Assembly (NCBI RefSeq): GCF_014643735.1
Contig: NZ_BMKA01000006.1
Coordinates: 88,750 to 152,749, forward strand
Direction: 5' to 3'
Source of the DNA: Neptunicoccus cionae
GTDB lineage: Bacteria; Pseudomonadota; Alphaproteobacteria; Rhodobacterales; Rhodobacteraceae
Length of the DNA: 64,000 nucleotides
The position numbers were made by a program, and so were the translations under genes. The notes beneath the pieces are model-generated. The model ran no database searches. It worked only from the letters and a program-made list of their open reading frames with translations, and was not told where the DNA came from. This document shows, in pieces, positions 28,872 to 63,479 of this stretch (position 1 is its first letter; each line of letters opens with the position of its first letter).

Positions 28872-29076
28872 AATCTTCCGCCTAACCTTATAAATAAATT
28901 CTGATATTGCCTTCGTAGAATGCTAAATTTTCTCCTGAACGGATCTGTAACCAGAGCGCTATGTATGTCGCTTCTTTGTGCTAAGAATAGGACACAGCGA
29001 AGCGCACTTTGCCCGAAGTGACGCCAAGTTAGACAGAAACAGGCAAGACCGGCAAGACGGACCAAGAGGTTTGAGT

Positions 29077-45012: not shown

Positions 45013-45282
45013 CTCGTTGCTCCTGAGACGGAAAAACTCCGGGACACTGATGTCCCGGACCCGCCGCGTTTTGGTGTTGGTGGTGACGCAGTTGGTATCG
45101 CAGTATCCCGCCATGCCGTACGCGATGGCCGAACCTGTCGAGTTGTCACAAAACAGGGACCAGCGGTCAAGCATGCAGACCGCTGGTTTTGCGCTTTGGA
45201 CCCTTTGGCAGAATTGTTCCGGAACAAGTTTACGGTTGACGGGCTGTCTTGGTAACGGATTATGTTCCTGTCTGGAGGAGCT

Positions 45283-45342
45283 ATGACAGAGCAAACGTTT
45301 GCCGTGATGTGGGCATGGCCACATTCGGTACCCAAAGCATGA
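45283..45342 (+). CDS. Possible 19-residue leader ORF coupled to a sulfotransferase
   Basis: ATG at 45283 with a strong ctggaggag ribosome site, encoding MTEQTFAVMWAWPHSVPKA, then TGA overlapping the ATG at 45339 of the sulfotransferase frame (ATGA). The sulfotransferase ATG itself has no good Shine-Dalgarno, so translation may depend on re-initiation after this peptide. Not verified as expressed. Confidence 0.45.
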   Translation: MTEQTFAVMWAWPHSVPKA

Positions 45343-46322
45343 GCGCCAGCTCCAAAGCCCGGCTATTGGCCCGCAAAGCCAAAGCGCATTTGATCCGTTT
45401 TGACGCGGCACATAGACCCATCGTCGTTATGGCATTGCGCCGGGGGGGATCGACGATGGTGGCGGATACCATTTCGATCAACCGTGGGGTTTGGGGGGCC
45501 AATGAACCCTTTGCCGTTTTTGACGCGCATCCGGGATATGACCTGAAACAACGCCTGCTGCCGCCGCGCGAACATTCGCAATTCTTTGAGTTGGCCCCCG
45601 ATGAGTTGGATCAATTCGCCAGCTTTGCCAAGGGTTTGCTGGGCGCGCAATACCCGCAGCTTGGCTCTTGTGCGCGGCCCAAACCGTTTCTGAAGGCGGA
45701 TCGGGTCTGCCTGAAGGTCTTGAACGCGCCTTGGATGATCGACTGGTTTGCGCAGAATACTAATGCCCATGTGCTGCCACTGGTGCGTCACCCCGGTGCG
45801 CAGGCGATTTCGGTGCTGCGCCAGAACTGGGGCTTTGCGGTTGAAGCTTATGGTCGCCAGCTGGATCGCATCGGACATCATTTCAGCGAAGGGCAAAGAG
45901 GGATGATCACGGATGTGCTGAAGGGTGACGACACCTGGGCTATCGCTATCCTAGATTATGCGGTTCTGACGCGACTATTCTTTACCGGCTACACCGACCG
46001 GATTGTGCGGTACGAAGATATTGTCACTGATCCCGCCCGCTTTGTTGATGAGGTGCTGATTGCGCAATTCGGCCTGTCCGAACGGGACCGGATGCTGGCT
46101 ACTTTGTCCAGACCCTCCCATTCCTCGCGGATGAGCCTGAACAGCGTGAACGAGGCTATCAAGGCGGGAAAAACCAATGACATCCTGCACAACTGGCGCA
46201 GTAAGGTCACACCCGAGATGCTGGCCGTCGGGCAGCGGATTCTGGATATGTTTGAAATTGAAACCTATCATTTTCTTGATGACAGGAAGGCAGATTTGCA
46301 GCCCTCGGGCAAGCGGCTGTGA
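45339..46322 (+). CDS. Sulfotransferase family protein
   Basis: 327 residues from the ATG at 45339. RPIVVMALRRGGSTMVADTI is the PAPS P-loop; HVLPLVRHPGAQAISVLRQNW is the 3'-phosphate motif; VRYEDIVTDPARFVDEVLI is a conserved late sulfotransferase block. A longer frame from TTG 45249 exists but the strong ribosome site at 45271-45279 belongs to the overlapping leader, so the shorter start was chosen; 45315 is a further option. It probably sulfates the polysaccharide. Confidence 0.75.
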   Translation: MSASSKARLLARKAKAHLIRFDAAHRPIVVMALRRGGSTMVADTISINRGVWGANEPFAVFDAHPGYDLKQRLLPPREHSQFFELAPDELDQFASFAKGLLGAQYPQLGSCARPKPFLKADRVCLKVLNAPWMIDWFAQNTNAHVLPLVRHPGAQAISVLRQNWGFAVEAYGRQLDRIGHHFSEGQRGMITDVLKGDDTWAIAILDYAVLTRLFFTGYTDRIVRYEDIVTDPARFVDEVLIAQFGLSERDRMLATLSRPSHSSRMSLNSVNEAIKAGKTNDILHNWRSKVTPEMLAVGQRILDMFEIETYHFLDDRKADLQPSGKRL

Positions 46323-46398
46323 CACGGGTGGGGTGGATGGTATTTCTGTATGATAAAACGAACTGTCGAATCCATCGACGCGGGCTATTGGAAGTTTA

Positions 46399-47196
46399 AT
46401 GGAGCGGCATTTCATCCTGACTTTGGGGCGATCCGGTAGCAACGCGCTGGTTGATGTGATCAATCAGCATCCGCAGGCGCTGAACTATGGCGAACTGCTG
46501 GGCGACTGGATGCAGATCCGTAAAATACGTGACCGGTTGGGCCTGTGGCGCGGCGATGATGCGGGGTATCTGGACGCTTTGCTGGCGGATGGCGTGCCCT
46601 TGCGGGTGGTCAACACCTTGCGCAATCTGCGCAAACGCCGTGCGGGCAAGGTCAGCGAGGTGCAACACCGCGCTGACCTGCACACCATCGGGGCCAAGGA
46701 TTTTGCGACCTTTTTTCGGGCACCCGACCTGCGGCGCTATTTTCTGGACCGCCCCGACCTTAAGGTGATCGGGCTTTGCCGTGCCGACACCATCGCCCGC
46801 TTTGTGTCCTGGCAATTGCTGGATCAGACCGGCACCGTCAAACGCGCTCTGAATGATACGTCCGGTCCTGCACGGATTACGCTGGACACGACCACGCTTC
46901 TCGCTGACATCGCGCGCGTGGCGGAGGAGTCCGCGCTGTTGGAGACCCTGCTGTCAGAACTGCCGGAAGGTCAGGTCACGCGGGTCTGTTACGAGGAGTT
47001 CTTTTTTGACGCACAGGCGCAAAAGGCCACCATCAAGACCCTCTATGCCTTTCTTGGTTTGCCGGACGCGCCGGCAAATATACGTGCGCGCAAGATCAAC
47101 ACCACACGGCTGCGCGATACGGTCCTGAATTACGACGACTGCCTGAGTGCCCTTGCGGGCAGCCGGTTTTATGACGGGTTTCTTGCCGCAGGATGA
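46399..47196 (+). CDS. Sulfotransferase family protein (Stf0-like)
   Basis: 265 residues. RHFILTLGRSGSNALVDVINQHPQALNYGELLGDW is the Stf0/sulfotransferase-like N-terminus; VIGLCRADTIARFVSWQLL is the second PAPS motif; RVCYEEFFFDAQAQKATIKTLYAFLGL is the late block. It is 76 bp after the previous sulfotransferase and on the same strand, so probably co-transcribed. The acceptor is unknown; Stf0 relatives sulfate glycolipids such as trehalose in mycobacteria. Confidence 0.8.
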   Translation: MERHFILTLGRSGSNALVDVINQHPQALNYGELLGDWMQIRKIRDRLGLWRGDDAGYLDALLADGVPLRVVNTLRNLRKRRAGKVSEVQHRADLHTIGAKDFATFFRAPDLRRYFLDRPDLKVIGLCRADTIARFVSWQLLDQTGTVKRALNDTSGPARITLDTTTLLADIARVAEESALLETLLSELPEGQVTRVCYEEFFFDAQAQKATIKTLYAFLGLPDAPANIRARKINTTRLRDTVLNYDDCLSALAGSRFYDGFLAAG

Positions 47197-47257
47197 AGCA
47201 AGACCTGCGCGGCTGACCCATGAGAATTTATAAGGCCATCACGTGATGAGAAGCGTT

Positions 47258-48289
47258 TTAAGAAGAACCGATACGCGCTTTGATCCGCCCCAAGAGCCTT
47301 CCCAGATGAAACCCGCTAAAGCGCAGAGTGGTTCGGATGAGGTCGGAAAAATCCGCAGGCCGCACCCGTGTCTGTTGCAGGTCATATTTCAATGCCGCCA
47401 TTTCACGATGCGCAATCTTGTTGAGAATCCAGTGCTCTAGTCCGGTAAGTTCATCTGGTTTGCGCGTGCCTGTCGCGTGGGAGGTATTAGGCTTTTCCGG
47501 CACATGCACGTCTTTGGGCGGTGTGGCCCCGAGAAAATAAGCGATCCGGTTGGCGGTCTGTTGTGGCTGGCCCACGAGGTCTTCAAACTGCACCAGCGTC
47601 AGCCCGTCGCCCAGTGTTTTGCAGTGTCGTTGATAGGATCGCACAGCCATGCGCCAGTAGATTGCATAGGCGATGGGATGGTAGCGTCGTGGATCGCCAT
47701 CCTGTGAGGACATCGGCATATGTTTGTAGGATGCCAGTACCTTGTAGGGATTGCGCAAAATAAACATGAAGCGCGCCTGCGGGTAATGTTGCCGTAACTC
47801 GGGAATCCGGCGGAAAGCGCCGGGCATCTTATAACCCCAACGGGTGCAGCCGGCACGTTTTGCCAGACGGCGCATGAACTCTTCCTGCATCTCGGCCCAC
47901 GATCCGGACCGGTCTGTGAAAGCCTGTGCAAGGGCCCCGTCCAGTGCAGCGACTTCTTCTTCAGTCACATTGGGAACCGCATAAAGACCAAAGCGCAATC
48001 GCGCCCGGATTTGCCAGCCCAGGTAATAGGTTAGTTTTTTGACATCGCGGGCGTTCATCGGGGTGTCTACCCCGATCTCTTGCGCTTTGCGTTGGGTATA
48101 GAGATCGTCAAACACATACCAGTCAGGGATTTGTGACAGGATATGGCTGAGAAAAGAGGAACCGCTACGGGGCATGCCAACCACGATCAACGGATCGCGG
48201 GTACAGATCTCGACAGGCAGGCGGATCGGGGCAAAAAGCGGATCGCAGGTGTCAATTTGTGCAGCGCTAAGTCCTGTATCATCAGCCAT
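47258..48289 (-). CDS. Sulfotransferase family protein (Sulfotransfer_3-like)
   Basis: 343 residues. PLIVVGMPRSGSSFLSHIL is a textbook PAPS P-loop; ARFMFILRNPYKVLASYKHM is the 3'-phosphate site; LVQFEDLVGQPQQTANRIAYFLG is the late conserved block. AGGA lies 9 nt before the ATG. It follows the 2OG oxygenase gene at 48322 by 32 bp on the same strand and may be co-transcribed with it, linking hydroxylation and sulfation at the edge of the PKS/NRPS locus. Confidence 0.85.
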   Translation of the reverse strand: MADDTGLSAAQIDTCDPLFAPIRLPVEICTRDPLIVVGMPRSGSSFLSHILSQIPDWYVFDDLYTQRKAQEIGVDTPMNARDVKKLTYYLGWQIRARLRFGLYAVPNVTEEEVAALDGALAQAFTDRSGSWAEMQEEFMRRLAKRAGCTRWGYKMPGAFRRIPELRQHYPQARFMFILRNPYKVLASYKHMPMSSQDGDPRRYHPIAYAIYWRMAVRSYQRHCKTLGDGLTLVQFEDLVGQPQQTANRIAYFLGATPPKDVHVPEKPNTSHATGTRKPDELTGLEHWILNKIAHREMAALKYDLQQTRVRPADFSDLIRTTLRFSGFHLGRLLGRIKARIGSS

Positions 48290-49271: not shown

Positions 49272-50201
49272 TCAGCCCTCCGGAACACCTGTCATGGGAT
49301 CCTGCGAGACCACCTGCCAGACGATCTTTTGCATCAGCCGCGCCGCTGCAGCACCGGGATCGTCCGCCGGAGTTCCATCGGCCCGCTGCAGGGTATGAGG
49401 GAGACCTGTCGGGTCGCGCTGGTAAAGAACTGCATAATGGATGAGCGCTATCAGGTAGGCGCCGTAGTCGTTGAAGTGGATATCGTCCTTGAACAGATCA
49501 CCGTGCTGTCCCAGCGGGCCAACGGCCCCTCCGGTTTCCAGGGCACGGGACAGGGCGGCCATGACCGAACCGCCGGGGATTACATAGATTGGGCGCGGCG
49601 GATCACTCTGGGCCAGGGCAGGGCGCAGCACAGCATCTTCCCAATAGAGGGTCCGGTCGCGGTCCAGCCGCACCCGCCAGCCAGTAGGGTCATTCAACTG
49701 GTGCCAGGTTTCATAAAGATAGATCACCATACCGGCCTCTTGGCCTTTGGCGGCCCAGCGGTGCAGATACGTGGGGGTGTCGTGGTAGCGGATTGCGTCT
49801 GCGATTTCGACCATCTCGGTCAGCACCAGCGCGTCGTAGGTGCCGGAGGCCAGTGCTTCATCGGGGTCACGATAGGCGGCATGGGCGTTTTCGGCTTCAA
49901 ATCCTTTGACCGGCACATCCGGCTCCCAGTGGGATCGCAACGTCGCGCCCCAACCAAGCTGGCTGGCGTAGTCGTGGCCTTCGCCAGCCAATTGCGCAAG
50001 CATCGCCGGCATGTCGCGCCCTACAAGGCTATGGCCCAGATGGTACACCTGACGCGGGCCCTGCGGCGCAGGGGCCGGAGTGTCGTAAAGGGCCGCAAAG
50101 GCCTGCGGGTCCAGCGGCGCAGCCTGACGGCTGTAAAGGCCAAGCGCTGCGAGAATGAACAGGGCCGGGGCGATCAGGATTTTTTTCAGACGGTGGCGCA
50201 T
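49272..50201 (-). CDS. SGNH-like hydrolase, membrane-anchored or secreted
   Basis: 309 residues. One N-terminal hydrophobic segment (residues about 7-22, KILIAPALFILAALGLY) is either a signal or an anchor. VYHLGHSLVGRDMPAML carries the GHSL block with Ser; QLGWGATLRSHW resembles the second block; the end DDIHFNDYGAYL gives DxxH. The combination indicates an SGNH-type esterase or acyltransferase in the periplasm. It follows the NRPS-like gene by 166 bp. The partial gene at 63605 has the same GHSL opening, so two relatives bracket the assembly line. Confidence 0.7.
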   Translation of the reverse strand: MRHRLKKILIAPALFILAALGLYSRQAAPLDPQAFAALYDTPAPAPQGPRQVYHLGHSLVGRDMPAMLAQLAGEGHDYASQLGWGATLRSHWEPDVPVKGFEAENAHAAYRDPDEALASGTYDALVLTEMVEIADAIRYHDTPTYLHRWAAKGQEAGMVIYLYETWHQLNDPTGWRVRLDRDRTLYWEDAVLRPALAQSDPPRPIYVIPGGSVMAALSRALETGGAVGPLGQHGDLFKDDIHFNDYGAYLIALIHYAVLYQRDPTGLPHTLQRADGTPADDPGAAAARLMQKIVWQVVSQDPMTGVPEG

Positions 50202-50367: not shown

Positions 50368-53300
50368 TCATCGGTTTTGCCGCTGTTTGCGCATCTCCCG
50401 CCGCCGTGCCATAGCATCGGTGAGTGTGCCGCCTGCTGGGGGCTCGAGTGTTGCGGGGGCGGTTTGTGCGGGCTGGGGAACCGCAGCAACCGGGGGGGCT
50501 TTGGGCGCAGAGTTCCCGGCTTTCTTGGCAACAATCTCTGATAAGGCGCCAAGGGTCGGGGCGCGAAAAATATCGGTGATCGACAGCTTTTGTACGCCAA
50601 GCCTCGCGCGGATCTCTCGGTGCGCCTGCACAGCCAGCAGCGAGTGACCGCCCAAATCAAAGAAGCTGTCTTTAGGGCCAATCTGCCCGACCCCAAGGAT
50701 TTCGGACCAGATTTCAGCGATCTTCTGGCTGATTTCAGCCTCAGAGCCCAGATCGACCTCCGCTGTCTCCGGCTCCGCTTTTGCCTCTGTAGCTGTAGTC
50801 GGTGTTGGTGTCGCAACGATTGGAGCGGCTTTACTCAGTACAGGCGCGGGCAGGGCCTTACGGTCGACTTTCTTGTTCGGGGTCAACGGAAAGGCGTCCA
50901 GCGTCACAAAATGACGCGGCACCATGTATTCGGGCAGGGCATTGAGCATTTCGGCACGCAAAGCGGCTTCATCTATGTTTGTTTCCGTCAGCATATAGCC
51001 AACCAACTGCACAACCCCTGGCGTATCTTCCCGTGCAATAACAACGGATTGCTGGACACCGTCAAACCTGTCCATGACGCTTTCGATTTCGCCCAATTCC
51101 ACACGGTAGCCGCGCAGTTTGACTTGAAAATCGGCACGCCCCAGAAAGTGGAGCCGCCCGTCCGGTTCCCAGCGCACCAGATCGCCGGTACGATACATGC
51201 GCCCCCGACCGGCAGAGTTAGGGTCAAGGGCCTTGAAAGGATCCGTCACAAAACGTTCCGAGGTAAGGGTGTCCCGCTGGAAATAGCCCCGCGTCACACC
51301 GGCACCAGCGATATACAACTCGCCCGGCATGCCAATGGGCCGGGGTTCCATATCCTCGCCCAACACATAGACTTGTGTATTGGCAATCGGGGTGCCGATA
51401 GGCACTGCCCCATGGCCCGGCGCGGCTGTCTGGGTGGTGGACCAGATTGTGGTTTCGGTCGGGCCGTACATGTTTTCCACGTGCCCCCCTGTAAGGTCAC
51501 GCAATTCGTCGGCCAGCGCCCCGGGCAGCGCTTCACCGCCCACCATCATATGGTCGAGCTGGCGTAAGGCGCCCCTTGCCTCCTCGTTCATGGCCAGCAT
51601 CTGTGCCATAGACGGGGTGCATTGGAGATGGGTGACTTTGTGGCGCAAAATCTGCGCGGCAATGGAATAATCATCGTCTGCCACGGTTTGATTGCTGGCA
51701 GCGACCACCTGTGCGAGCGGCTTCAAGCCTTCCAGCACGTGATCCACGTCGATGCCGTAATCAATCAGGCAGGCGATCTCGGTGACGCCGATGGCTTTGA
51801 CCTGTGCGACCCGCTCAACCGCGTCTTCAACCGTACCAAACAGCCCGGAGTCGTTGAAATACCGTTCAAAGGCGAAATCAAGGATACCTTCCATTTCCTC
51901 GGTGTTCAGCGATGCCAGATCAATCTGCATCGGGTTTTCAACCCCTTTGGGTTTCTTGAATGCCGGAAAAGCCCATGCGTATTGTTTGATCAGGCCAGCG
52001 GCGGCGCGCAGGTAATCCTTCATAGGCTCGCGGGCAATCTCGCGGGCTTGCTCGCGGGTATCTGCAAGAAAGCTGTGCAGCATTAAAGTGACGGAAAAAT
52101 CATCGGGATTATGGCCCGCTTCGCGCAGGGCAGCGTGGTAGATGGCGATTTTTTCCGCAACTTCATCGACGCTTTGCCCCAGAAGGTGGGTCAGCACGTT
52201 GCAGCCGTTTTCTCCGGCCTCTTTCCATGTTGCAGGATTGCCAGCGGTCGTGACCCAGACATTTAGTGTCTTGGATACGGGGCGGGGTTGGGTGACAACA
52301 CCATGCATCTCGCCGTTCTGACGTGCGAATTCTACCGTCTCTCCGGCCCAAAGCTTACGCAGGTCACGGATTGCGTCAAACATCGCCGGTTTGTTGTTCG
52401 GGGGCGTGTTTTCCGGACGCAGCACAAAGTCGTCAGGCTGCCAGCCGGAGGCAATAGCAATTCCACTCCGCCCGTTTGTTAGATTGTCGATGACGGCCCA
52501 TTCCTCGGCAATGCGCGCGGTATGGTGCAACGGGGCGACGCAAGAACCGGCCCGCACAGCAAGGTTGCGCGTGACCGCTGCGACCGCTGCCCCTGTGACC
52601 GAAGGGTTTGGATAGGGGCCGCCAAAGGCGTGGAAATGCCGTTCGGGGGTCCAGACTGCACAAAAGCCGTTTTTGTCGGCAAACTGTGCGCCCTCCAGAA
52701 GCGAGCGGTATTTATCGCGCCCGACGCCATCGTCATTGCCCCAGTAAAACAGGCTGAAGTCCATGCCGACACCGGGTGCGGGGCCTTCGCCTGAGACCAA
52801 GGCGCGGCTTTCTTCGCCCGAGATGACCAGTTTGAAACCGCGCGCGAGGGTCCAGAATAATTCCAGCACCGAAATGTCAAAGGACAGGCTGGTCACAGCC
52901 ATCCAGACGCCGGGGGGGGAATGGGAAATTCGGTCGTCCATTCCGGTAAAGAAGTTTGCCACATTGCGGTGTTCGACCATCACGCCTTTGGGGGTGCCGG
53001 TCGATCCGGATGTGTAGATCATATAGGCCATGTGGTGGCCTGCTACGTCTGAAACAGGATTGCCGGCTTCGCTTTCCGGCGACACTGTATCGACCCGTAT
53101 GATCTCGGCGGATGTACGGGGCAGGTTGGCGGCCAAGGCGCTGTCGGTGATGATGACTTTGGTGCCGCTGTCCTCAATGAAGAACTCTGTGCGGCTGGCT
53201 GGATAGACCGGATCGAGTGGCAGATAGGCACCGCCTGCCTTCAGGATCGCAAGTGCTGCGACCAGAAGAGCCGAAGAGCGGTGCAGGTGCAGGCCCACAA

Positions 53301-54966
53301 TCACATCGGGGCCGACGCCTTTGGCTTGCAGGATGCGGGCAAGTTGATTGGCTTTCCCGTTCAACTGCGCATAGCTGAGGCTTTCGCCTTCAAAGGCCAG
53401 TGCCTCTGCCTCGGGGGTGCGTTCAACCTGCGCCTCAAACGCCTGATGGATACATTGCGTTTGGGGGAAGTCCGTTGTGGTGGCGTTCCAGTCGAACAGC
53501 ACTTTCTGGCGTTCTGCGTCGGGCAGGATCGTGGGCGTTTCGCCTTTGGCGATCTGGGCGGCCATATGGGTTAATCGGGCCGCCATAAGGGTCGCGGCTT
53601 CAGTGGTGATTTTGCCGGTATTGGCGTGCAACGTTGTACCTGCAACGGTCAGGGCCGTGCCAGAAATATAGCTGTCATCTGACAGCCCCAAGGCAGGGAT
53701 TGCGACATCACCGGGCATCCGGGCAAGCAAGTCGGCGGTAAAGGGGCCGCGGGCTCTGGCTGCGGCGGGGTCAGAGCCCGCGCGCAGCGGCACCCAATCG
53801 GACAGATAGCCGGGATGGTCATGGGGCAGCCCCAGAGCCAAATCGATAGGGTCTTCGGCCAGCGCACTGCCCAAATGCATCAATGCGCGGGCCAGATGGT
53901 CGTGATCACCGGCAAGCGGAATGGCGACGATCTCGCCGAACGGGGCGTCCATGTCGATCAGCGGCAGGGCGACTGGGGACATGGCTTCTAGGGTGTGGCG
54001 CCAGTCTTCTTCAGTTTTCAGCGTGGCTTTCAGGGCTGCACTCAGGGCTTCGGCCTCGGCCGTATCAAGGGTGGGCAACACATCCCCTACGGCGGCGATC
54101 CGCGAGGGGGCAACAGGCGCGCCGTAGGCATCCCGCAGTTTGCTCAAAGTCACTGGCGCTGTGGCGGTGGCGACGGTCAGGCTGTCATTGTCCAAGGCGA
54201 TTACGGTTCCTGCGCTGGCATCGGCAGAGCTTTTGCCGGCCTCGGCCTTACCCACAAGAAAGACACCAGCGGCAGAGGCGAGTTTGGGACAGGCCAGCGG
54301 GTTCCAGTAAGCGCCATGGTCCAATGCGCGGACCAAGGTGGTGATCTGTCGCGCACTCTGGGTGAAATTGATCCGTGCGGCGTTCGCAGGCCGGTCGTTT
54401 TTGGCAAAATAGCTGCGTTGCGACAGGTCTTGGGCCGTGGTCACAGGTGCGTTTGTTGCCAGTTTCTCGATGACTGTGGCAAAGCTGTCGATGGCCGCAG
54501 CATAACATTTGGTGTTCAGGGTCAGCGCGGTTTCGTCCGGACTGACATCAAAGAAGCTTTGTGCCAGCAAATCACCTTCGTCGACGCCGCCCGAAATCAT
54601 ATGCCAGCTTACGCCGTATTCAGCCTCACCGTTCAGCAATGCCCAGACCGGAGCGTTCAAACCTGCATAGCGCGGCAGGGGGCCGTCATGAAAATTCACC
54701 GCCCCGCGAAGGGGGCGCGCCAATACAGCCGCAGGGATCATATCAAGATTGGCAATCGACATCAGCCAGTCGAATTCCATTCCGGCAAGTGCCGCAACCA
54801 GATCGGTGTCAGGGCTATGCAGCAACAGCCCTGCGTCCTTTGCCCAATCCTCCACATCAGGGTGGCGGGTCACAACGGCGGCGACCGTATGGCCTGCTTC
54901 GCGCAGCATCTCACCACATTGAATGGTCAGCGTTTCATTACCGATAACAACGGCGCGATAGGACAT
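50368..54966 (-). CDS. NRPS-like protein: formyltransferase, adenylation domain interrupted by a luciferase-like monooxygenase, T domain
   Basis: 1532 residues from the ATG at 54966, chosen over 55080 for its GGAG site and 4-bp distance from the GT2 stop. F domain: about 1-320, formyltransferase with Asn91, His93 and Asp129 in the order of Met-tRNA formyltransferase. Linker (about 430-510) resembles the end of a C domain, but no full C domain exists. A domain: about 510-1380, with A3 YTSGSTGTPKG (651), A5 YGPTETT (1167), A7 YRTGDL, A8 and A10. Between A4 and A5 a monooxygenase of about 355 residues is inserted (about 733-1088, MDFSLFYWGNDDGVGRDKY ... TPERHFHAFGGPYPNP). The code reads DILQMGMIW, one family away from the glycine code DILQLGLIW. 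T domain: about 1410-1480, FFDLGGHS (Ser1442). No C or TE domain. A basic tail (about 1515-1532) may dock to the PKS. Predicted starter: N-formyl, oxidised glycyl-S-T. Confidence 0.92.
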   Translation of the reverse strand: MSYRAVVIGNETLTIQCGEMLREAGHTVAAVVTRHPDVEDWAKDAGLLLHSPDTDLVAALAGMEFDWLMSIANLDMIPAAVLARPLRGAVNFHDGPLPRYAGLNAPVWALLNGEAEYGVSWHMISGGVDEGDLLAQSFFDVSPDETALTLNTKCYAAAIDSFATVIEKLATNAPVTTAQDLSQRSYFAKNDRPANAARINFTQSARQITTLVRALDHGAYWNPLACPKLASAAGVFLVGKAEAGKSSADASAGTVIALDNDSLTVATATAPVTLSKLRDAYGAPVAPSRIAAVGDVLPTLDTAEAEALSAALKATLKTEEDWRHTLEAMSPVALPLIDMDAPFGEIVAIPLAGDHDHLARALMHLGSALAEDPIDLALGLPHDHPGYLSDWVPLRAGSDPAAARARGPFTADLLARMPGDVAIPALGLSDDSYISGTALTVAGTTLHANTGKITTEAATLMAARLTHMAAQIAKGETPTILPDAERQKVLFDWNATTTDFPQTQCIHQAFEAQVERTPEAEALAFEGESLSYAQLNGKANQLARILQAKGVGPDVIVGLHLHRSSALLVAALAILKAGGAYLPLDPVYPASRTEFFIEDSGTKVIITDSALAANLPRTSAEIIRVDTVSPESEAGNPVSDVAGHHMAYMIYTSGSTGTPKGVMVEHRNVANFFTGMDDRISHSPPGVWMAVTSLSFDISVLELFWTLARGFKLVISGEESRALVSGEGPAPGVGMDFSLFYWGNDDGVGRDKYRSLLEGAQFADKNGFCAVWTPERHFHAFGGPYPNPSVTGAAVAAVTRNLAVRAGSCVAPLHHTARIAEEWAVIDNLTNGRSGIAIASGWQPDDFVLRPENTPPNNKPAMFDAIRDLRKLWAGETVEFARQNGEMHGVVTQPRPVSKTLNVWVTTAGNPATWKEAGENGCNVLTHLLGQSVDEVAEKIAIYHAALREAGHNPDDFSVTLMLHSFLADTREQAREIAREPMKDYLRAAAGLIKQYAWAFPAFKKPKGVENPMQIDLASLNTEEMEGILDFAFERYFNDSGLFGTVEDAVERVAQVKAIGVTEIACLIDYGIDVDHVLEGLKPLAQVVAASNQTVADDDYSIAAQILRHKVTHLQCTPSMAQMLAMNEEARGALRQLDHMMVGGEALPGALADELRDLTGGHVENMYGPTETTIWSTTQTAAPGHGAVPIGTPIANTQVYVLGEDMEPRPIGMPGELYIAGAGVTRGYFQRDTLTSERFVTDPFKALDPNSAGRGRMYRTGDLVRWEPDGRLHFLGRADFQVKLRGYRVELGEIESVMDRFDGVQQSVVIAREDTPGVVQLVGYMLTETNIDEAALRAEMLNALPEYMVPRHFVTLDAFPLTPNKKVDRKALPAPVLSKAAPIVATPTPTTATEAKAEPETAEVDLGSEAEISQKIAEIWSEILGVGQIGPKDSFFDLGGHSLLAVQAHREIRARLGVQKLSITDIFRAPTLGALSEIVAKKAGNSAPKAPPVAAVPQPAQTAPATLEPPAGGTLTDAMARRREMRKQRQNR

Positions 54967-54970
54967 GGGG

Positions 54971-55960
54971 TTAGTCTCCGGTTTGGGAACGGGCCTTGAT
55001 CTTATGGTCTCGTTTAGAGGTAAAAAGTTGGGCGATATCGTGGCGGGCAAGGGTCCGCAGGAAATGCGGCGCGCCGCCATGTGGTTTACGGGTCACTTTG
55101 CAGCGCAGCCAGTGCAGCCCGCCACCGCTCAGATGCAGGGCTGTGGCCAAAGTGGCATAAGCGCGACCGTGGTTTTTTGTAAAATAATGCCAGCGCGAGT
55201 TGAACCAGTAATCCGGCACGCGGGACCATTCCTTCATCCCAGTAGAGACCGACCCCAGATGGGTGACGACGCTGTCTTGCAGAAACATCACCCTGTGACC
55301 TGCTTCTTGGGCGCGGCGACACAGGTCTGTTTCTTCAAAATACAAAAAGAAGGTTTCGTCAAAAAGGCCGATTTCGTCCAGCACGTCCTGACGCATCATC
55401 ACCGAGGCCCCCGCCAGCCAGTCGACCGGCCCGGAGCTGTTGCGAGGATCGGGCACCCGGTGGGATTTCAGCAGGCGGCTGACGGGCCCCAGTTTCACAG
55501 ACCGTTCAAATTCGCTCCAGATTGAAGGAAAGCGGAAAGTGGTGATGTGACGTATCTCGTCCTCACCTTCAATATAGCTGCCTGCAAAACCTGTGCCGGG
55601 CGTGGTGTTCAGATGGTCGTAGAGCACCCGGATGGCCTGCGGCTTGGGGAAGGCGTCCGAGTTCAGAATATAGATGTAATCTGGGCGTGACCCATCCGAG
55701 AGCCCGGCCCGGATGCCAACGTTATTGCCCGCGCCATAGCCCCCGTTATGACCCGATTGGATGACCCTGATATTGTCCCGGCCCTGCGCCGTTACACGGG
55801 CGCTCAGGGTTTCGTATGACCCGTCCTGACTGTCATTATCCACAACCACGATTTCGCCGGGCAGACCCTCCATCGCTATGCGTGCGGCTTCCACGGCCTT
55901 CAGGGTCATTTCAGCGGTTTTGTAATTCAGAACGATGGTCAGAATGGTCGGGTCAGACAT
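54971..55960 (-). CDS. Family 2 glycosyltransferase inside the PKS/NRPS operon
   Basis: 329 residues. TIVLNYKTAEMTLKAVEAA, EIVVVDNDSQDGSYETL, NGGYGAGNNVGIRAGL, YILNSDAFPKPQAIRV and FFLYFEETDLCRRAQEAGHRVMFLQ are motifs of the rhamnosyltransferase-like GT2 group. It starts at the base after the PKS stop and ends 4 bp before the NRPS start, so its product probably glycosylates the assembly-line product or its lipid or protein carrier. The rml operon in the window could provide dTDP-rhamnose (inference). The C-terminal 60 residues are basic and probably bind membrane. Confidence 0.9.
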   Translation of the reverse strand: MSDPTILTIVLNYKTAEMTLKAVEAARIAMEGLPGEIVVVDNDSQDGSYETLSARVTAQGRDNIRVIQSGHNGGYGAGNNVGIRAGLSDGSRPDYIYILNSDAFPKPQAIRVLYDHLNTTPGTGFAGSYIEGEDEIRHITTFRFPSIWSEFERSVKLGPVSRLLKSHRVPDPRNSSGPVDWLAGASVMMRQDVLDEIGLFDETFFLYFEETDLCRRAQEAGHRVMFLQDSVVTHLGSVSTGMKEWSRVPDYWFNSRWHYFTKNHGRAYATLATALHLSGGGLHWLRCKVTRKPHGGAPHFLRTLARHDIAQLFTSKRDHKIKARSQTGD

Positions 55961-58900
55961 TTATTCGGCGGCTTCCTGAAATTGGATCTGATCGCGGGGG
56001 CGTTCCAGATACCTGCGGATGCGGGCAGCAAGCACGCGCACATTGGGTTCCAACACCATGGAATCGTGATCGCCGGGCACCTCGAATATCTGGATATCGG
56101 GGGCGAATTTGCCCCAGTCGTTATCGTCATGAAGATAAACGCGCTCATGGCTGATCAACCTGTCGCCTACGGTCCATTTGGGCACAAGTTGCGGGCGGAA
56201 CAGCGCCAGCGTGCCATCCCAGTCTTGCACCTGATAGGCGCCGACGCTTTCTAGAAACGCATCCTGAATGGCGACGTTGTGGAATTGCTGGCCGTCTTCG
56301 GCAGTTTCCTCGCGGGTCTGGCGCTTGCGCATTTCCCAGGCAATGCGGTCGCGGGCCCAGTCGCGGAAATACCCCAGCCCGCCCTTGCGGATATCCTGTA
56401 ACTTGATCCTCAGCCTGTCGGCCTTTTCTATTCCGGGACGCACCGGCAGGGGGGTGTCCAGCAAGACCAGCGCTGCGATCTCTTCGCCATCTGCGCGCAG
56501 TTGTCGGGCTATTTCAAACGCGGTGATGCCACCCCCCGAAAACCCGCCCAGATGATAGGGGCCATGGGGCTGCACCTGACGCATCTCGGAGATGTAGTCG
56601 GCCGCAGCGGATTCGATCGTGCGATGGGGGGGGTCGTCACCCAGCAATCCGCGCGCCTGAAGCCCGTAGAAAGGACGGTCACTGCCAATCAGATGTGCCA
56701 GATGGCGCAGGTTCAGCACATTGCCAAACATCCCTGCCACAAGGAAAAAGGGTGGTTTGTGCCCGCCTTCGCCCTGATGCATCGCGACCAGATGGGTAAA
56801 GCGGCGGGGCGGGGCTTTGGGTTTATCCGCTGCGGCTGCCTCAGCGCTGTCGCCATCCGTGACACCGCGTGCGGCAATCAATTCGGCGCATTTGCGGATT
56901 GTGGGCGCTTCAAACAGCACGGATATCGGGAAATCGACCTGATAGGCTTTGCGGATCTGCGCAAACAGCCGCACTGCGATCAGGGAATGGCCGCCAAGAT
57001 CAAAGAAGCTGTCCTCAACCCCGATCTGGTCCACCCCCAAAAGATCCTGCCAAAAGGCGGCGAGCCGTTCTTCGATGGCATTTGAGGGGGCAACGAAGTC
57101 ACTGTCCAGTTGTGGCCGCGAGAATTTCTGCCCGTCCTCGGTGTCGGTATCATCAGATTGCCCGGCCTGTGTGATAATCGCGTTCAGATCGAGCGAGGAC
57201 AGGATGATCTGGCGGTGCGTTCCCATCAATGCTTGCAGGAACAACTCCGCGCCTTCTTCGGCCCGGATCCCCTGAGACAGATTGTGACGCAGCCGTTCTT
57301 CGGCGGGCGACAGGGGGCGTGCAGTATCGTCGGGCGCTTGCGACGGGGCTTCGTCCTGCGCACCAAAGCCCGAGATTTCTTCCATCTGGCGGATTGAGAA
57401 GCCGCTGATTTCCACGCAGACCGTCCCGTCGGGGGCTGCCAGTGTGATGTCAAAGCTGGCGATATCCCCGTCCGAGGTGTTGTCACCCGCGTTGCGCACC
57501 CAGCTGACAATTTCGCCGGGCAGCGGTGCGTAAACCTTGACCGAGCGGTAACTGACCGGCACCCAGAGGTGCTGGCTGGCATAGCCCGCAATCAGTTCCA
57601 TTGCCCAACCTGTCGCCAGATCCATCAGGCCGGGATGCAGCAGATAACCCTGATCAGTGTCTTTTGCAGCGGCAGCGGGCAGTTTCAGACGTGCGATGCC
57701 TTCGCCGTCCCCGAGCGCAGTGGATTGCAACACACGCCAGCGCGGACCAAAATTCAGATGCGCCTCTTGGGGGGAGGTAATCCAGCCGGTTTCACCAGCC
57801 TCAAGCGGCGCCTTACAGCGGGCGGTGATGGCCGCGACATCCAGTGGTGCGGGGGCTGCCAGAGGCAGGATTTGCAAGTTGGCTTGGGCGTTTTGCGCAA
57901 AGCCTCCCTTTCCGCCGCTTTCCACCAGAAACCCGTAACCCGCATCGCTGCGCGGCAGGGACAGGCGCAAATCAACCGAGCCCGCATCGCCGACAGCAAA
58001 GGGGCGCAGGAAATACAGGTCGCGGATTTCAAAGGCTGCCGTTTCCCCCATGGCATGCAGCGCCTCGATTGCCATCTCCAGATAGCCGGTGCCCGGGACC
58101 AACGCATCGCCGGCCTTGGTGCGGTGCTCGTCCAGAAACCAACGGTCGGCCACAGTGTAGTTTGCAGTGAAGATCCTGTTTCCGGCGTGGTCAAACGTGG
58201 CCTGATCCAGCATGGGGGCGTTTATGTCGTGTACTTCCGGGGGGGTGGCACTGCCGGTGCGCGCCTCCATTGCGTCGGCGGCCATGCCCACGTCGGCCCA
58301 GATGCCCCAGTTTATCGCCCGCACACGGGTCTGGTCGCCACTGCGGGATTTGGCGTAGGCATTAAGATATTCATTGGCGGCCACGTAATCCACCTGCCCG
58401 ATCGGGGCTGTCGCGGTGGAACTGGAGGCAAACAGCACGAGCCAGTCCAGCGTCCCGTCGGGAAACACTTCGTCCAGCACATTGGTGCCGTGGATTTTAG
58501 GGGCAAAGACGTCTTCGATACTGGTGGCATCCTTGGTCATGATCGGCGCGTCGTCGATATGGCCTGCAGCATGGATGATGCCGTTGATCGTACCCAGCTC
58601 GGCTTCAATCGCGGATTTTGCATCGCGAATGTCTTCTACATTGCTGATATCGGCAGCGAAGGTCATGATGGACCCGCCCATTGCCTCAAGCCGCTGTAGG
58701 GCTGTAATCCGGCGGGCAAGCGGGGCTGTGGCCGCGGTATTTTTCAGGACCCTGTCCCAAGTTTCGCGCGGTGGCAGGGGGCTGCGTGCAACCAGCGCCA
58801 GCTTTGCACCTGCACGTTTGATCAGGGTCTCGGCCAGCGTCAGCCCGATGCCGCCAAAGCCGCCGGTAATCATATAGACCCCGCCCTGTTTCAACACGGG

Positions 58901-61900
58901 GAGTTCCCCCTCGGGGAGATCGTCCAACGGGGCGGGGCGATAGGTCAGCGCAAAACGTTTGCCCCCCCGTATCAGGGCGGTGTCATTGCCCGGCTCCGCC
59001 AATGCGTCCTCAAGGATATGATCGACCAGTTGATTAACCTGATCCTCGGGCAGGGAATATTTCTTGCGCCCGGTCCGGGGCGGCAGGGTAATGTCGAGCG
59101 TTGAGACCGTCAGATGCGGAAACTCGCGCGGGATCACACGGGCCGGACCTGCAAGGGTTGCCTTTTCAGGGTGGGGCAGGGGTTCGTCCCTGTGCTGTGC
59201 GGCGCCATTGCTGAGCGCCAGAATATGGATGTCTTCGGGCAGGTCTTCGCCGCCAATCGCCTGAGCGAGGAAAAACAGGCTATAGAACCCCTGTTCCTGC
59301 ACCCGATGGAAAAAGCTGGATCCGGGGCGAAAACTTTCGTCGGGGGTGATCATCCAGCCGTGCAGGATACGGGTGGGGATCAGATCGCGGGTGTTGAGGT
59401 CTGATATCAGGGCGTCATAGCTTTCGCGGCCCCGTTCGGGGGCAATGAAATAACCGCCCTCTCCATCCCGGGAAAAAGTGTCTCCGGTGCGCACGGTGAT
59501 CACGTCATGTCCAGCAGCACGCAGTCGTTTCGCGGCCGCAGTCACCAGCCCCGCCTCATCGGTGAAGGCCAGCCAGACCTGTTTTTCCGCCTCGGACAGA
59601 TCGCCCGTCACATCCACGTCACAGGCAGCATAGCGCGGCACCCATGCGGGTCTGTAACCCCAGTTTTCAGGCGTGTCGCTCCGGGTCAGCCATTGCGCAT
59701 CGGCATCGGATTTGGCCATGCCGGGTTCAATGAAATAGGCAGCATGCTGGAAGGCATAGGTCGGCAAAGGCACGCGGTGACGGGGAACACCGCCCCAGAT
59801 CTGATCCCAGTCAAACGTCCCACCCACAGCCCAGATCCGGCCCAGCATCGCCATGAAATAGGCGTCATCGGCCACGTCATCCTGTTGGTGGCGCAGGGTG
59901 TTCACAATTTGATTGGCCTGCACCTTATCGTGTTGCCCCGCCAGCGCGGACATCGCCCGTCCCGGTCCGACCTCAATGAAAACCCGTTCGTCTTTTGATG
60001 CGAGGGTGCTCAGACAATCGGCAAAATGCACAGTGCCACGGAGGTGTCCAACCCAGTAATCGGGGTCTTGTGCCTGTGCATCGGTGATGAAATCGCCGCT
60101 GCGGTTGGATGTAAACGGAATCTGCGGCGCATTCAGGGGGATCGCGCGCAGATAATCGCCAAAGTCCTTCAGAATAGGTTCCAGCATCCGCGAATGGGCG
60201 GCGATATCAATCGGAATACGCTGGCAGTCGATGTCGTCGGATTTCAATCGCGCCTCAAGAACATCCAGTGCAGCCTGCGGTCCGGTCGCCACGCTAAGGG
60301 AAGGTGCATTCACCGCTCCGAGATCCAGATCATCCCCTAAAAGCGGTTTGAGCTGATCCGCGGGCAGGGCGATGGACAGCATGCCCCCCGCAGGAACGGT
60401 GTCAAACAGCTTGCCGCGCAGGTGAACAAGGCCGATGCAATCTTCAAATGACATCACCCCTGCCACGCAAGCAGCAGTGTTTTCCCCCATGGAGTGTCCT
60501 ACAAGCGCAGCAGGCGTGACGCCCCAGCTGATCCAGAGCTGCGCCAGCGCATATTCTACAATCATAATCAGCGGCAGTTGCACCGAAGGCTGCGTCAACC
60601 GGGAGTCGGCGGCTTCTTCAGCCCCCGGTTCGGGCAACCACAGCGCGCGGATGTCGTAATCCAGCTTGGGTTGCAGAATTTCCAGACCCTTATCCATCCA
60701 TTCTGTAAAGACGGGTTCGGTCTCATAGAGATCGCGGGCCATGCCTGCATATTGGGCGCCGCCGCCCGGGAACATAAAGACGTAATCGGGATCATCGCCC
60801 AAAACGCTGTGGGAAAATGCGCGACGTGGATCGTTCTTTTCCAGCTGGTCAGCGGCGTCTTCATGGCTTTCGGCCACGATCACCCTACGGCGTTCAAAGC
60901 CCCGCCGCCCGTTTTTCAGGGTCCATGCGATATCGGCCAGATCCTGTTCGGGATGGGCCCGAAGATGTGCTGCCAGCCGGGCAGCATTTCCGTCAAGCGC
61001 TGCCTTGTTGCGCCCCGATACAGTCAGAATCTGAAACGGCCAGTCCGAGGGCTGCGTTTTTGCCCGGTCAGGGGCTTCTTCCAGCACCACATGGGCATTG
61101 GTGCCGCCAACGCCCAGTGAATTAACCCCGGCGCGGCGGGGGCCTTTGTGACTGATCCAGTCTGTTAGCTGATCATTGACGCGAAAGGGGGTTGTTTCAA
61201 AATCAATCGCAGGATTGGGTTTCTCATAGCCCAAGGACGCCGGGATCTGTTTGTGATGGAGCGCTAATGACGTCTTGATCAGACTGGCCACACCGGCGGC
61301 AGTATCCAGATGGCCGATGTTGGTTTTTACCGATCCCAAACGGCAAAATCCGACCTCTTGTGTGGTTTCATTAAAGGCTTGCGTCAGCGCGGCCACCTCA
61401 ATCGGGTCGCCCAGATAGGTGCCTGTGCCGTGACATTCGATATAGTCGATGGTGTCGGCAGGGGTGTCAGCGATCATCTGTGCTTCGGCAACGGCTTCGG
61501 CCTGACCATCCACCGAAGGCGCAAGATACCCCGCTTTCGCCGCGCCGTCGTTGTTGATCGCTGATCCTTTGATCACCGCCCAAATGTGATCACCATCGGC
61601 AATCGCGTCTTTCAGGCGGCGCAGAACCACAACACCGGCGCCAGAGCCAAACACCGTGCCCTGTGCGCGGTGGTCAAAGGCGTGGCAATGACCGTCCGGC
61701 GACAGCACTTCGCCCTCTTTGTAGATATAACCGCGATCCTGTGGCAGTTCGATCGTCACACCGCCCGCCAAAGCCGTGTCACATTCGCCCGACAACAGGG
61801 CTTGTGTGGCATAATGCGTGGCGACCAAGGAGGTGGAACAGGCGGTTTGTACGTTTACCGAAGGCCCTTTCAGGTCAAAGATATGGCTGACCCGCGTAGA

Positions 61901-62395
61901 GAGAAAATCCTTGTCGTTCCCTGTGTGCCGTAACAGGAACATTCCAACGTTATCAACGAGATCCTGATTGGAGCAGATGTTGAAATAAAAGTAGCTGCCC
62001 ATACCACAGCCGGCAAAAACCCCGATAGGCCCGCGCGTGTCTTCGGGGATATGTCCGGCGTTTTCCATCGCCTCCCATGCGACCTCGAGGAAGTGACGGT
62101 GTTGGGGGTCCATAATCGCAGCTTCTTTGGGGGACAGCCCGAAAAATTCCGCATCAAAATTCTGATAGCCTTGCAGCGGGGCGGCTGCAGGAACGTAATC
62201 GGGCCGGTTCAGCCGATGTGCCATCTCACCGGCGGCGAGCAGTTCTTCGGAGCTATAGGAGCGGATCGACTCGATGCCGTTGCGCAGGTTTTCCCAATAG
62301 GATGCTACAGTATCAGAACCGGGCAAATGTGCCGCCATACCGACAATGGCAATGTCAGTTTCAGCGAATGTATTCTGTTTGCTACCCGTACCCAT
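55961..62395 (-). CDS. Modular polyketide synthase KS-AT-KR-DH-ACP-TE
   Basis: 2144 residues from the ATG at 62395 (a TTG directly before it is possible). KS: 12-440, Cys186 (TACSTSL), His322 and His362. AT: about 535-860, Ser635 (GHSMGE) with AAHS at 732-735, which does not clearly assign malonate or methylmalonate. KR: structural part about 910-1160, NADPH motif TGGFGGIG at 1177, catalytic Ser about 1325, Tyr1337. DH: about 1395-1675, His1424 and Asp1592 (HPGLMD). ACP: Ser1804 in FFDLGGHS. TE: about 1880-2144, Ser1953 in GFSGGG. The KR precedes the DH, unlike the usual DH-KR order. Neither loading domain nor ER is present, so the starter probably comes from the NRPS T domain. A DH active-site spacing one residue longer than HxxxGxxxxP is noted. 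Confidence 0.93.
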   Translation of the reverse strand: MGTGSKQNTFAETDIAIVGMAAHLPGSDTVASYWENLRNGIESIRSYSSEELLAAGEMAHRLNRPDYVPAAAPLQGYQNFDAEFFGLSPKEAAIMDPQHRHFLEVAWEAMENAGHIPEDTRGPIGVFAGCGMGSYFYFNICSNQDLVDNVGMFLLRHTGNDKDFLSTRVSHIFDLKGPSVNVQTACSTSLVATHYATQALLSGECDTALAGGVTIELPQDRGYIYKEGEVLSPDGHCHAFDHRAQGTVFGSGAGVVVLRRLKDAIADGDHIWAVIKGSAINNDGAAKAGYLAPSVDGQAEAVAEAQMIADTPADTIDYIECHGTGTYLGDPIEVAALTQAFNETTQEVGFCRLGSVKTNIGHLDTAAGVASLIKTSLALHHKQIPASLGYEKPNPAIDFETTPFRVNDQLTDWISHKGPRRAGVNSLGVGGTNAHVVLEEAPDRAKTQPSDWPFQILTVSGRNKAALDGNAARLAAHLRAHPEQDLADIAWTLKNGRRGFERRRVIVAESHEDAADQLEKNDPRRAFSHSVLGDDPDYVFMFPGGGAQYAGMARDLYETEPVFTEWMDKGLEILQPKLDYDIRALWLPEPGAEEAADSRLTQPSVQLPLIMIVEYALAQLWISWGVTPAALVGHSMGENTAACVAGVMSFEDCIGLVHLRGKLFDTVPAGGMLSIALPADQLKPLLGDDLDLGAVNAPSLSVATGPQAALDVLEARLKSDDIDCQRIPIDIAAHSRMLEPILKDFGDYLRAIPLNAPQIPFTSNRSGDFITDAQAQDPDYWVGHLRGTVHFADCLSTLASKDERVFIEVGPGRAMSALAGQHDKVQANQIVNTLRHQQDDVADDAYFMAMLGRIWAVGGTFDWDQIWGGVPRHRVPLPTYAFQHAAYFIEPGMAKSDADAQWLTRSDTPENWGYRPAWVPRYAACDVDVTGDLSEAEKQVWLAFTDEAGLVTAAAKRLRAAGHDVITVRTGDTFSRDGEGGYFIAPERGRESYDALISDLNTRDLIPTRILHGWMITPDESFRPGSSFFHRVQEQGFYSLFFLAQAIGGEDLPEDIHILALSNGAAQHRDEPLPHPEKATLAGPARVIPREFPHLTVSTLDITLPPRTGRKKYSLPEDQVNQLVDHILEDALAEPGNDTALIRGGKRFALTYRPAPLDDLPEGELPVLKQGGVYMITGGFGGIGLTLAETLIKRAGAKLALVARSPLPPRETWDRVLKNTAATAPLARRITALQRLEAMGGSIMTFAADISNVEDIRDAKSAIEAELGTINGIIHAAGHIDDAPIMTKDATSIEDVFAPKIHGTNVLDEVFPDGTLDWLVLFASSSTATAPIGQVDYVAANEYLNAYAKSRSGDQTRVRAINWGIWADVGMAADAMEARTGSATPPEVHDINAPMLDQATFDHAGNRIFTANYTVADRWFLDEHRTKAGDALVPGTGYLEMAIEALHAMGETAAFEIRDLYFLRPFAVGDAGSVDLRLSLPRSDAGYGFLVESGGKGGFAQNAQANLQILPLAAPAPLDVAAITARCKAPLEAGETGWITSPQEAHLNFGPRWRVLQSTALGDGEGIARLKLPAAAAKDTDQGYLLHPGLMDLATGWAMELIAGYASQHLWVPVSYRSVKVYAPLPGEIVSWVRNAGDNTSDGDIASFDITLAAPDGTVCVEISGFSIRQMEEISGFGAQDEAPSQAPDDTARPLSPAEERLRHNLSQGIRAEEGAELFLQALMGTHRQIILSSLDLNAIITQAGQSDDTDTEDGQKFSRPQLDSDFVAPSNAIEERLAAFWQDLLGVDQIGVEDSFFDLGGHSLIAVRLFAQIRKAYQVDFPISVLFEAPTIRKCAELIAARGVTDGDSAEAAAADKPKAPPRRFTHLVAMHQGEGGHKPPFFLVAGMFGNVLNLRHLAHLIGSDRPFYGLQARGLLGDDPPHRTIESAAADYISEMRQVQPHGPYHLGGFSGGGITAFEIARQLRADGEEIAALVLLDTPLPVRPGIEKADRLRIKLQDIRKGGLGYFRDWARDRIAWEMRKRQTREETAEDGQQFHNVAIQDAFLESVGAYQVQDWDGTLALFRPQLVPKWTVGDRLISHERVYLHDDNDWGKFAPDIQIFEVPGDHDSMVLEPNVRVLAARIRRYLERPRDQIQFQEAAE

Positions 62396-62662: not shown

Positions 62663-63406
62663 TTAAATGGATTTACGACGTCGGCGCCGGGCGGCAAAAC
62701 CTAGGGCGCCAATGCCGGTTAGAAGCAGTCCCATACCGGCTGGCAGAGGGACTTGCGACAGCAGGGCCAAGTCGCTCGGGGTTGCCAGAACGTCCAGATC
62801 CGCGCGCCATGAAATGCCGCCCAGTTGCCCGCCCCCGTCAAGTCCGGTGAAATCAAGGTCCAACTGTGTGAATGCATCCTCGCCGGTCATATGGTTGCCA
62901 ATCTGGACATGACCGCTGTAATGCGCACCGATCGCCCCGGTGAATGCGTCACCGCCCGCACTTACGTTGAACTCGATTCCGATCTTGGTGGTCGGAGAGT
63001 TCCGCACATCGCTGTCGGGATATTCGCCAGCATCAAAAATTACATTCGCCCTGCCCATATTCACCGTCAGGTTGGTGAGAAGCTTACTGGCGTTCATCGA
63101 GAAGGTGTTGCTGTTATCGTAGGTGAAGGAGAGGTCTGGGCTTTCGTGATCAACACGCACCGAGAATATATTCGATGTATGTTGAATGAATTCCCAGTTT
63201 TCCGTGGTGCCATCGCCAAACCTTGCCAGAACAGTCGCCCCGACCAGATCAGAGCGATATGTGGCTGTCCGGGTTCCGACACCGTCTATGGATTTATAGG
63301 TCGGACGCAGATCGTAGGTAACGTCGACTGTAGCTGCATGTGCAGGCATAACTGCGGTCCAAGCCAGCAGGCAGGCGGCAACTATGGGTTTGTGAAAATA
63401 TCTCAT
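62663..63406 (-). CDS. VPLPA-CTERM sorted surface protein
   Basis: 247 residues from the ATG at 63406 (a TTG at 63415 is an alternative). Signal peptide (about 1-25, ending MPAHA), a beta-rich exported domain, and a C-terminal sorting tail: VPLPAGMGLLLTGIGALGFAARRRRRK, the VPLPA motif, a membrane helix and a basic end. This is the recognition tag for an exosortase in alphaproteobacteria; no exosortase is in the window. Such proteins are tied to exopolysaccharide systems. It shares a divergent promoter region with the SGNH gene at 63605. Confidence 0.88.
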   Translation of the reverse strand: MRYFHKPIVAACLLAWTAVMPAHAATVDVTYDLRPTYKSIDGVGTRTATYRSDLVGATVLARFGDGTTENWEFIQHTSNIFSVRVDHESPDLSFTYDNSNTFSMNASKLLTNLTVNMGRANVIFDAGEYPDSDVRNSPTTKIGIEFNVSAGGDAFTGAIGAHYSGHVQIGNHMTGEDAFTQLDLDFTGLDGGGQLGGISWRADLDVLATPSDLALLSQVPLPAGMGLLLTGIGALGFAARRRRRKSI

Positions 63407-63479
63407 GATTCCCAACTAAACTAATTTTGTAATTAAATTAGAATTATCTTAGGCAAATCGGGGACAACTTGCAATATTG

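Follow-up and report, generated by a model that had tools for sequence, protein, structure and literature searches.

What might an assembly line of nonribosomal peptide synthetase (NRPS) and polyketide synthase (PKS) type be making when it lies among genes for a polysaccharide? The question is raised by a stretch of 64,000 nucleotides from Neptunicoccus cionae (contig NZ_BMKA01000006.1, positions 88,750 to 152,749), which we analysed as a whole and call the window. Its minus strand carries a tight block of three genes: a PKS (62395-55961), a glycosyltransferase of family GT2 (55960-54971) and an NRPS (54966-50368). As anatomy, it is well supported that this is a conserved line, found mostly in polysaccharide loci, that uses an MtaG-like glycine oxidation module as its starter. 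As to its purpose, the reading that we favour, giving it slightly less than an even chance, is that the two proteins, one for initiation and one for a single extension, make a short acyl group that would be attached by an ester to a surface polysaccharide.

Domain architecture of the two synthases

Pfam analysis of the single NRPS protein (50368-54966) found a formyltransferase (F) domain (Formyl_trans_N/C), an AMP-binding adenylation (A) domain around a Bac_luciferase domain, and a PP-binding thiolation (T) domain. Along the minus strand these are F at 54103-54963 (PF00551/PF02911), the N-terminal part of A through motif A4 at 52807-53439 (PF00501, residues 548-758), a luciferase-like monooxygenase (LLM) at 51706-52758, the C-terminal part of A from motif A5 onward at 50869-51690, and the T domain, a peptidyl carrier protein (PCP), at 50536-50727 (PF00550). 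The LLM, which scored 469.9 bits against TIGR04020 of NCBIfam (cut-off 244.45), occupies residues 775-1125, between A4 (733-742) and the A5 region (from 1202). These residue numbers follow a 1570-residue reading from 55080 that is an upstream extension; the gene most likely starts at the ATG at 54966, 4 nucleotides past the GT2 stop. Residues 327-540 (53437-54108), which lack a Pfam assignment, model as the C-terminal lobe of a condensation (C) domain (pLDDT 92.0) and match the C-terminal halves of C domains. Judging by this model, F seems to have replaced the N-lobe of a condensation domain whose C-terminal half remains, so that the protein looks like a C-A(LLM)-T module converted into a loader. 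The initial annotation had located the block correctly and had read F-A(LLM)-T on one protein and KS-AT-KR-DH-ACP-TE on the other; Pfam and NCBIfam recovered every domain it named, and what it missed was the C-lobe between F and A.

We aligned 53 NRPS rows, the window's own included, in which L108 and L055 are one gene. The Asn, His and Asp of F were kept in 53, 52 and 53 rows, respectively, and the Ser of T in all 53. An F domain with this Asn-His-Asp set, followed by A and T, is an initiation module of the LgrA type, and LgrA of linear gramicidin synthesis was the best match to the NRPS in the Protein Data Bank (PDB). The two have the F-A-T loading order in common; LgrA loads valine, not glycine, and is not known to have an LLM or a PKS. 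The LLM is the most conserved part of the NRPS, with a mean pairwise identity of 0.74, versus 0.50 for F, 0.60 and 0.61 for the two parts of A, and 0.58 for T. The specificity code of the A domain, DILQMGMIWK in the window, followed the pattern DILQxGM(I/V)WK in 52/53 rows (51/52 distinct genes), with Lys at the tenth position throughout (53/53); the outlier was Bradyrhizobium L020, whose LLM region is missing from the alignment. The first nine positions were nearly the same in A domains with an LLM from Burkholderia glumae, Nostoc and Deinococcus, and looser in Streptomyces (DMVQLGMVW).

The type I PKS (55961-62395) starts at ATG 62395, with TTG 62398 also possible. Motifs in it were counted over 44 rows, including the window's and one (L110) that is another NRPS/PKS of genome G149. 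The ketosynthase (KS; 61049-62359; PF00109/PF02801) kept its Cys and both His in 44/44 rows. The acyltransferase (AT; 59846-60781; PF00698) carries the motifs GHSMGE and DIAAHS, which we take, by the usual specificity rule, to be of malonyl type. A ketoreductase (KR; 58292-58882; PF08659) is followed by a dehydratase (DH; 57377-58216; PF21089, PF14765) with its His in 43/44 and its Asp in 44/44 rows, by an acyl carrier protein (ACP; 56876-57070; PF00550) with a PCP-like GGHS signature whose Ser is kept in 44/44, and by a thioesterase (TE; 56009-56728, end approximate; PF00975). Conservation of domains and motifs across the aligned rows is far beyond chance, and the A, T, KS, AT and ACP domains with their catalytic motifs make the pair a hybrid NRPS-PKS. 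Neptunicoccus sediminis CY02 has a close copy, with 95% identity in the NRPS and 98% in the PKS.

Among related PKSs, Pfam found the same KS-AT-KR-DH-ACP-TE order in L107 and L016, and an extra C-A-T ahead of the TE in Aliiroseovarius L018. The Deinococcus PKS (L019:14992-26977) ends with a condensation domain (HHLAADA motif), not a TE, and F is a separate upstream gene there. Release thus varies, from TE in the window and G542 to C-A-T-TE in L018 and a C domain in Deinococcus. In four loci, L018 (Aliiroseovarius), L019 (Deinococcus), L106 (G542) and L108 (G484), the NRPS gene comes ahead of a co-oriented PKS that begins with KS, in support of the NRPS-to-PKS direction. In G149, another large NRPS/PKS reading (L110:2-10000) lies directly upstream of the copy of the line.

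Proposed oxidation chemistry and candidate product

The A(LLM)-T modules MtaG and MelG of the myxothiazol and melithiazol lines resemble the window's NRPS in having a TIGR04020-type LLM between A4 and A5. The relevant sections of PMC10204066 place this monooxygenase between a4 and a5 and describe a carbinolamide that cleaves to leave a glyoxyl thioester. Sections of PMC11342130 on the crz clusters describe A domains bearing a monooxygenase (MOx) as glycine-recruiting, and the two sources together put the insertion of MtaG and MelG in a glycine A domain, which the A domain of the window probably is as well. In the myxothiazol and melithiazol lines, the glyoxyl thioester is hydrolysed by a following TE, whereas the window's module begins a chain: the NRPS lacks a TE, an N-terminal F replaces the N-lobe of its C domain, and a PKS is downstream. 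A similar case is solanimycin SolF, where a glycine A domain is combined with a flavin monooxygenase, and the same part of PMC10204066 states that the product, alpha-hydroxyglycine, stays; unlike the window's LLM, that of SolF lies between a8 and a9, in an antifungal line, where the module serves elongation. Corallorazine-type crz clusters likewise have the MOx in a glycine A domain (A2 in crz), and a B. glumae cluster that we read from its annotation as crz-like has an A code nearly identical to the window's. The crz clusters differ in yielding lipodipeptides, and neither an F domain nor a PKS is named in those sections of PMC11342130 or in the B. glumae annotation.

Because the LLM sits at the myxothiazol and melithiazol position, the glycine carbon is expected to be oxidised. 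We propose that the A domain would load glycine onto T, F would formylate the bound glycine, and the LLM would hydroxylate the glycine Cα of the thioester-bound substrate. The N-formyl carbinolamide would be either retained or split into formamide and a glyoxylyl thioester. Addition of one malonyl unit by the PKS, with reduction and dehydration, would then give a 4-oxobut-2-enoyl or 4-formamido-4-hydroxybut-2-enoyl group, which the TE would pass on. The group would become an ester on the polysaccharide whose synthesis is directed by the Wzx/Wzy genes around the block together with its GT2, and an SGNH-fold protein encoded beside the block would transfer or trim this ester outside the membrane. 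On sequence grounds, the product is most likely a four-carbon unit that carries the oxidation at C4 (4-oxobut-2-enoyl or its N-formyl hemiaminal) and is esterified to the polysaccharide. The formyl-glycine start, the NRPS-to-PKS direction, the use of one malonyl-type extender and an association with the polysaccharide locus had all been put forward in the initial annotation, and as inferences they gained support.

The end product read from that annotation, a 4-formamidocrotonate taken as unoxidised and subsequently glycosylated by the GT2, fares differently. It would require the LLM to be inactive or to act elsewhere, and domain order alone permits this. However, the oxidised glycine Cα is C4 of the product, the position of the LLM and the A code both fit oxidation at that carbon, the LLM is the best conserved region, and five loci carry the line without a GT2 homologue at 85% coverage (see below). 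We consider this product highly improbable. Still less probable is iterative use of the PKS, giving a longer formamido-polyene acyl chain as a lipid anchor of the polysaccharide. KR and DH without an enoylreductase would suit such a chain and the number of rounds is not readable from sequence, but the PKS is a single module with a TE, and a related one runs on into C-A-T-TE, which is more like modular use.

Within the favoured scheme, a more specific chemistry, which we regard as unlikely, is that a release module of the MtaG/MelG type was turned into a loader. The formyl cap would enable the oxidation and leave as formamide, and the glyoxylyl thioester would start the PKS. The resulting 4-oxobut-2-enoyl ester (5-hydroxyfuranone in its ring form) would be a masked aldehyde on the surface polysaccharide in about one-third of the family, possibly cross-linking it. 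If these ideas are right, a wide range of bacteria would be using secondary-metabolite machinery in the service of a polysaccharide, and a glyoxylyl starter would arise by way of a formyl cap that is later discarded. Among the matches listed in our literature searches, none described the line as working on a polysaccharide, and none a glyoxylyl starter made with a disposable formyl cap.

Distribution and polysaccharide setting

We searched 198 genomes from the family of genome G001 and 385 from its class. At E <= 1e-150, the NRPS was matched in 70 of the family genomes and in seven of the class genomes (including G001, G060 and G080); the line is thus common in the family rather than peculiar to the window. 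A GT2 match was present in 67 family genomes, 66 of them NRPS-positive (the exception being G102), and was missing from four NRPS-positive genomes (G123, G149, G163 and G190). At 64 of the 73 NRPS places, the gene immediately upstream on the same strand is the GT2. This count comprises 63 places found by rule plus G001, added by hand because its NRPS reading overlaps the GT2 and the rule had scored it as non-adjacent. Of the other places, eight are on contigs where the GT2 has no match, and one (G196) has the GT2 elsewhere on the contig.

The block is also present on plasmid records of Ruegeria, Parasedimentitalea and Paracoccus. Aminobacter and Shinella have the two synthase genes in divergent orientation without an intervening gene, and Deinococcus has them in direct succession. 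In a FastTree phylogeny of the A(LLM)-T part, which left out G149, Aminobacter and Shinella fell together with the sampled family's loci (0.997), and next to them stood a second group (0.941) made up of Deinococcus, G484, G542 and Aliiroseovarius. In the block on plasmid pCP157_02 of Paracoccus marcusii CP157, F has a gene of its own. The part of PMC8273931 that covers this plasmid lists an antiSMASH hybrid cluster, which, from the plasmid name, we infer to be the present block. If the favoured reading is right, such a cluster, listed there only as a hybrid, would become a testable question of surface chemistry.

Most of the loci examined are polysaccharide loci of the Wzx/Wzy type. Around the block they have flippase, Wzy-like, WecG, sugar transferase and GT4/GT2 genes, as well as genes that we read as BY-kinase-like and Wzz-like, and this setting recurs in records of Ruegeria, Parasedimentitalea, Paracoccus, Aminobacter, Shinella and Deinococcus. 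The window itself has, on the minus strand, a Wzx-type flippase and a GT2 (40739-43080), with homologues near the block in relatives, and a Wzy-like O-antigen ligase/polymerase (34240-35793) that scored 30.3 bits, just under the Pfam cut-off of 31.7. In 11 genomes, a hand count among the matches listed put the number of other GT2-family matches at 17 within some 20 kb of the line, against 1.2 expected; this sum excludes three of 14 genomes (G149, G542 and G484), which had none near the line among those matches. G484 does have genes resembling GalE and GT4 at distances of up to about 7 kb from its NRPS. A 4'-phosphopantetheinyl transferase gene directly follows the NRPS in L014, L016, L017 and L116, and clustering of neighbours from greedy open reading frames (ORFs) placed one beside the line in 23/43, a rough count, as are all those out of 43, because antisense ORFs perturb the clustering.

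Candidate partner proteins and proposed fate of the acyl group

By its distribution, the block GT2 (54971-55960, minus strand; PF00535) is more likely a polysaccharide glycosyltransferase, because the line persists in loci without a GT2 homologue at 85% coverage (L016, L018, L019 and those of G542 and G484). These five loci weaken the initial proposal that the GT2 glycosylates the acyl unit, and with it a role as tailoring enzyme of a small molecule. Next to the block, at 49272-50201 on the minus strand, lies a gene for a membrane-anchored SGNH-fold protein, a probable ester-handling partner. Its S58, G85, N105, D239 and H242, by our motif reading, are invariant in 12 sequences, and fold matches agree; unlike PatB and carbohydrate-esterase SGNH proteins, it matches no Pfam family. 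PDB sequence searches with the GT2 and with the SGNH alignment gave no matches. The SGNH protein was matched in 42 of the 198 family genomes, and 41 of these also have the NRPS (37/38 at E <= 1e-60), with only weak matches, perhaps to a paralogue, in G028, G067, G116 and G160 (E 1e-16 to 1e-26). In some genomes its gene is far from the block; in four that we examined, it is followed by a homologue of another GT2 of the window (28978-29922, plus strand), the match being L014 30837-31661, which clusters with that GT2. Beside the SGNH protein in one locus, L085:2045-4573 encodes an 842-residue protein without a Pfam match that is in part about 32% identical to it.

Several observations weigh against the favoured reading. 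The co-occurrence test ignores shared ancestry, and 29 of the 70 NRPS-positive genomes have no SGNH match. SolF, although its LLM lies between A8 and A9, retains its hydroxyglycine, so cleavage of the carbinolamide cannot be assumed, and the TE could simply hydrolyse its substrate. A small reference set of our own choosing gave no polysaccharide homologue around the line in G542 or G149, and in L018 the nearest annotated glycosyltransferases (three) are 16-20 kb off; the line may therefore not depend on a polysaccharide.

The negative result in G542 and G149 would suit a free small metabolite, a C4 acid released by TE hydrolysis that would serve in signalling, as a metal ligand or as the precursor of an antibiotic, with the polysaccharide genes as neighbours by history. 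These two genomes also lack a GT2-family match near the line among the matches listed, and the extra C-A-T-TE of L018 implies a peptide-like product. We nevertheless think this somewhat unlikely, given the recurrence of the polysaccharide setting from Ruegeria to Deinococcus, the GalE- and GT4-like genes near the NRPS of G484, the GT2 in 66 of the 70 NRPS-positive genomes and the co-occurrence of the SGNH protein. The usual place of the GT2 directly upstream of the NRPS would also fit an acyl unit within the polymer backbone or a lipid-linked intermediate, either with a sugar added by the GT2 to the hydroxyl of the unit or with the unit bridging repeats. We judge this improbable, since Aminobacter and Shinella have no gene between NRPS and PKS and Deinococcus has the two in direct succession. 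The ester-linked acyl group on a surface polysaccharide is the reading that we retain.

The surroundings of the block have further features. A VPLPA-CTERM protein (62663-63415, minus strand; TIGR03370, 33.8 bits) adjoins the PKS. We rejected an exosortase link, as 9 of 45 XrtD genomes have the NRPS against 15.9 expected, a depletion (p 0.02); XrtD is nonetheless near the line in two records. Two Paracoccus records have a second NRPS in the same polysaccharide locus (L017:1671-5726, C-A-T-TE; L117:1-2603, from annotation only). In the window, the polysaccharide locus holds two related GMC oxidoreductases (31946-33538 and 43438-45411; 64% identical over 524 residues). Three sulfotransferase-like genes (45249-48289), one of them under the Pfam cut-off, lie beside the polysaccharide genes, and the polymer may be sulfated.

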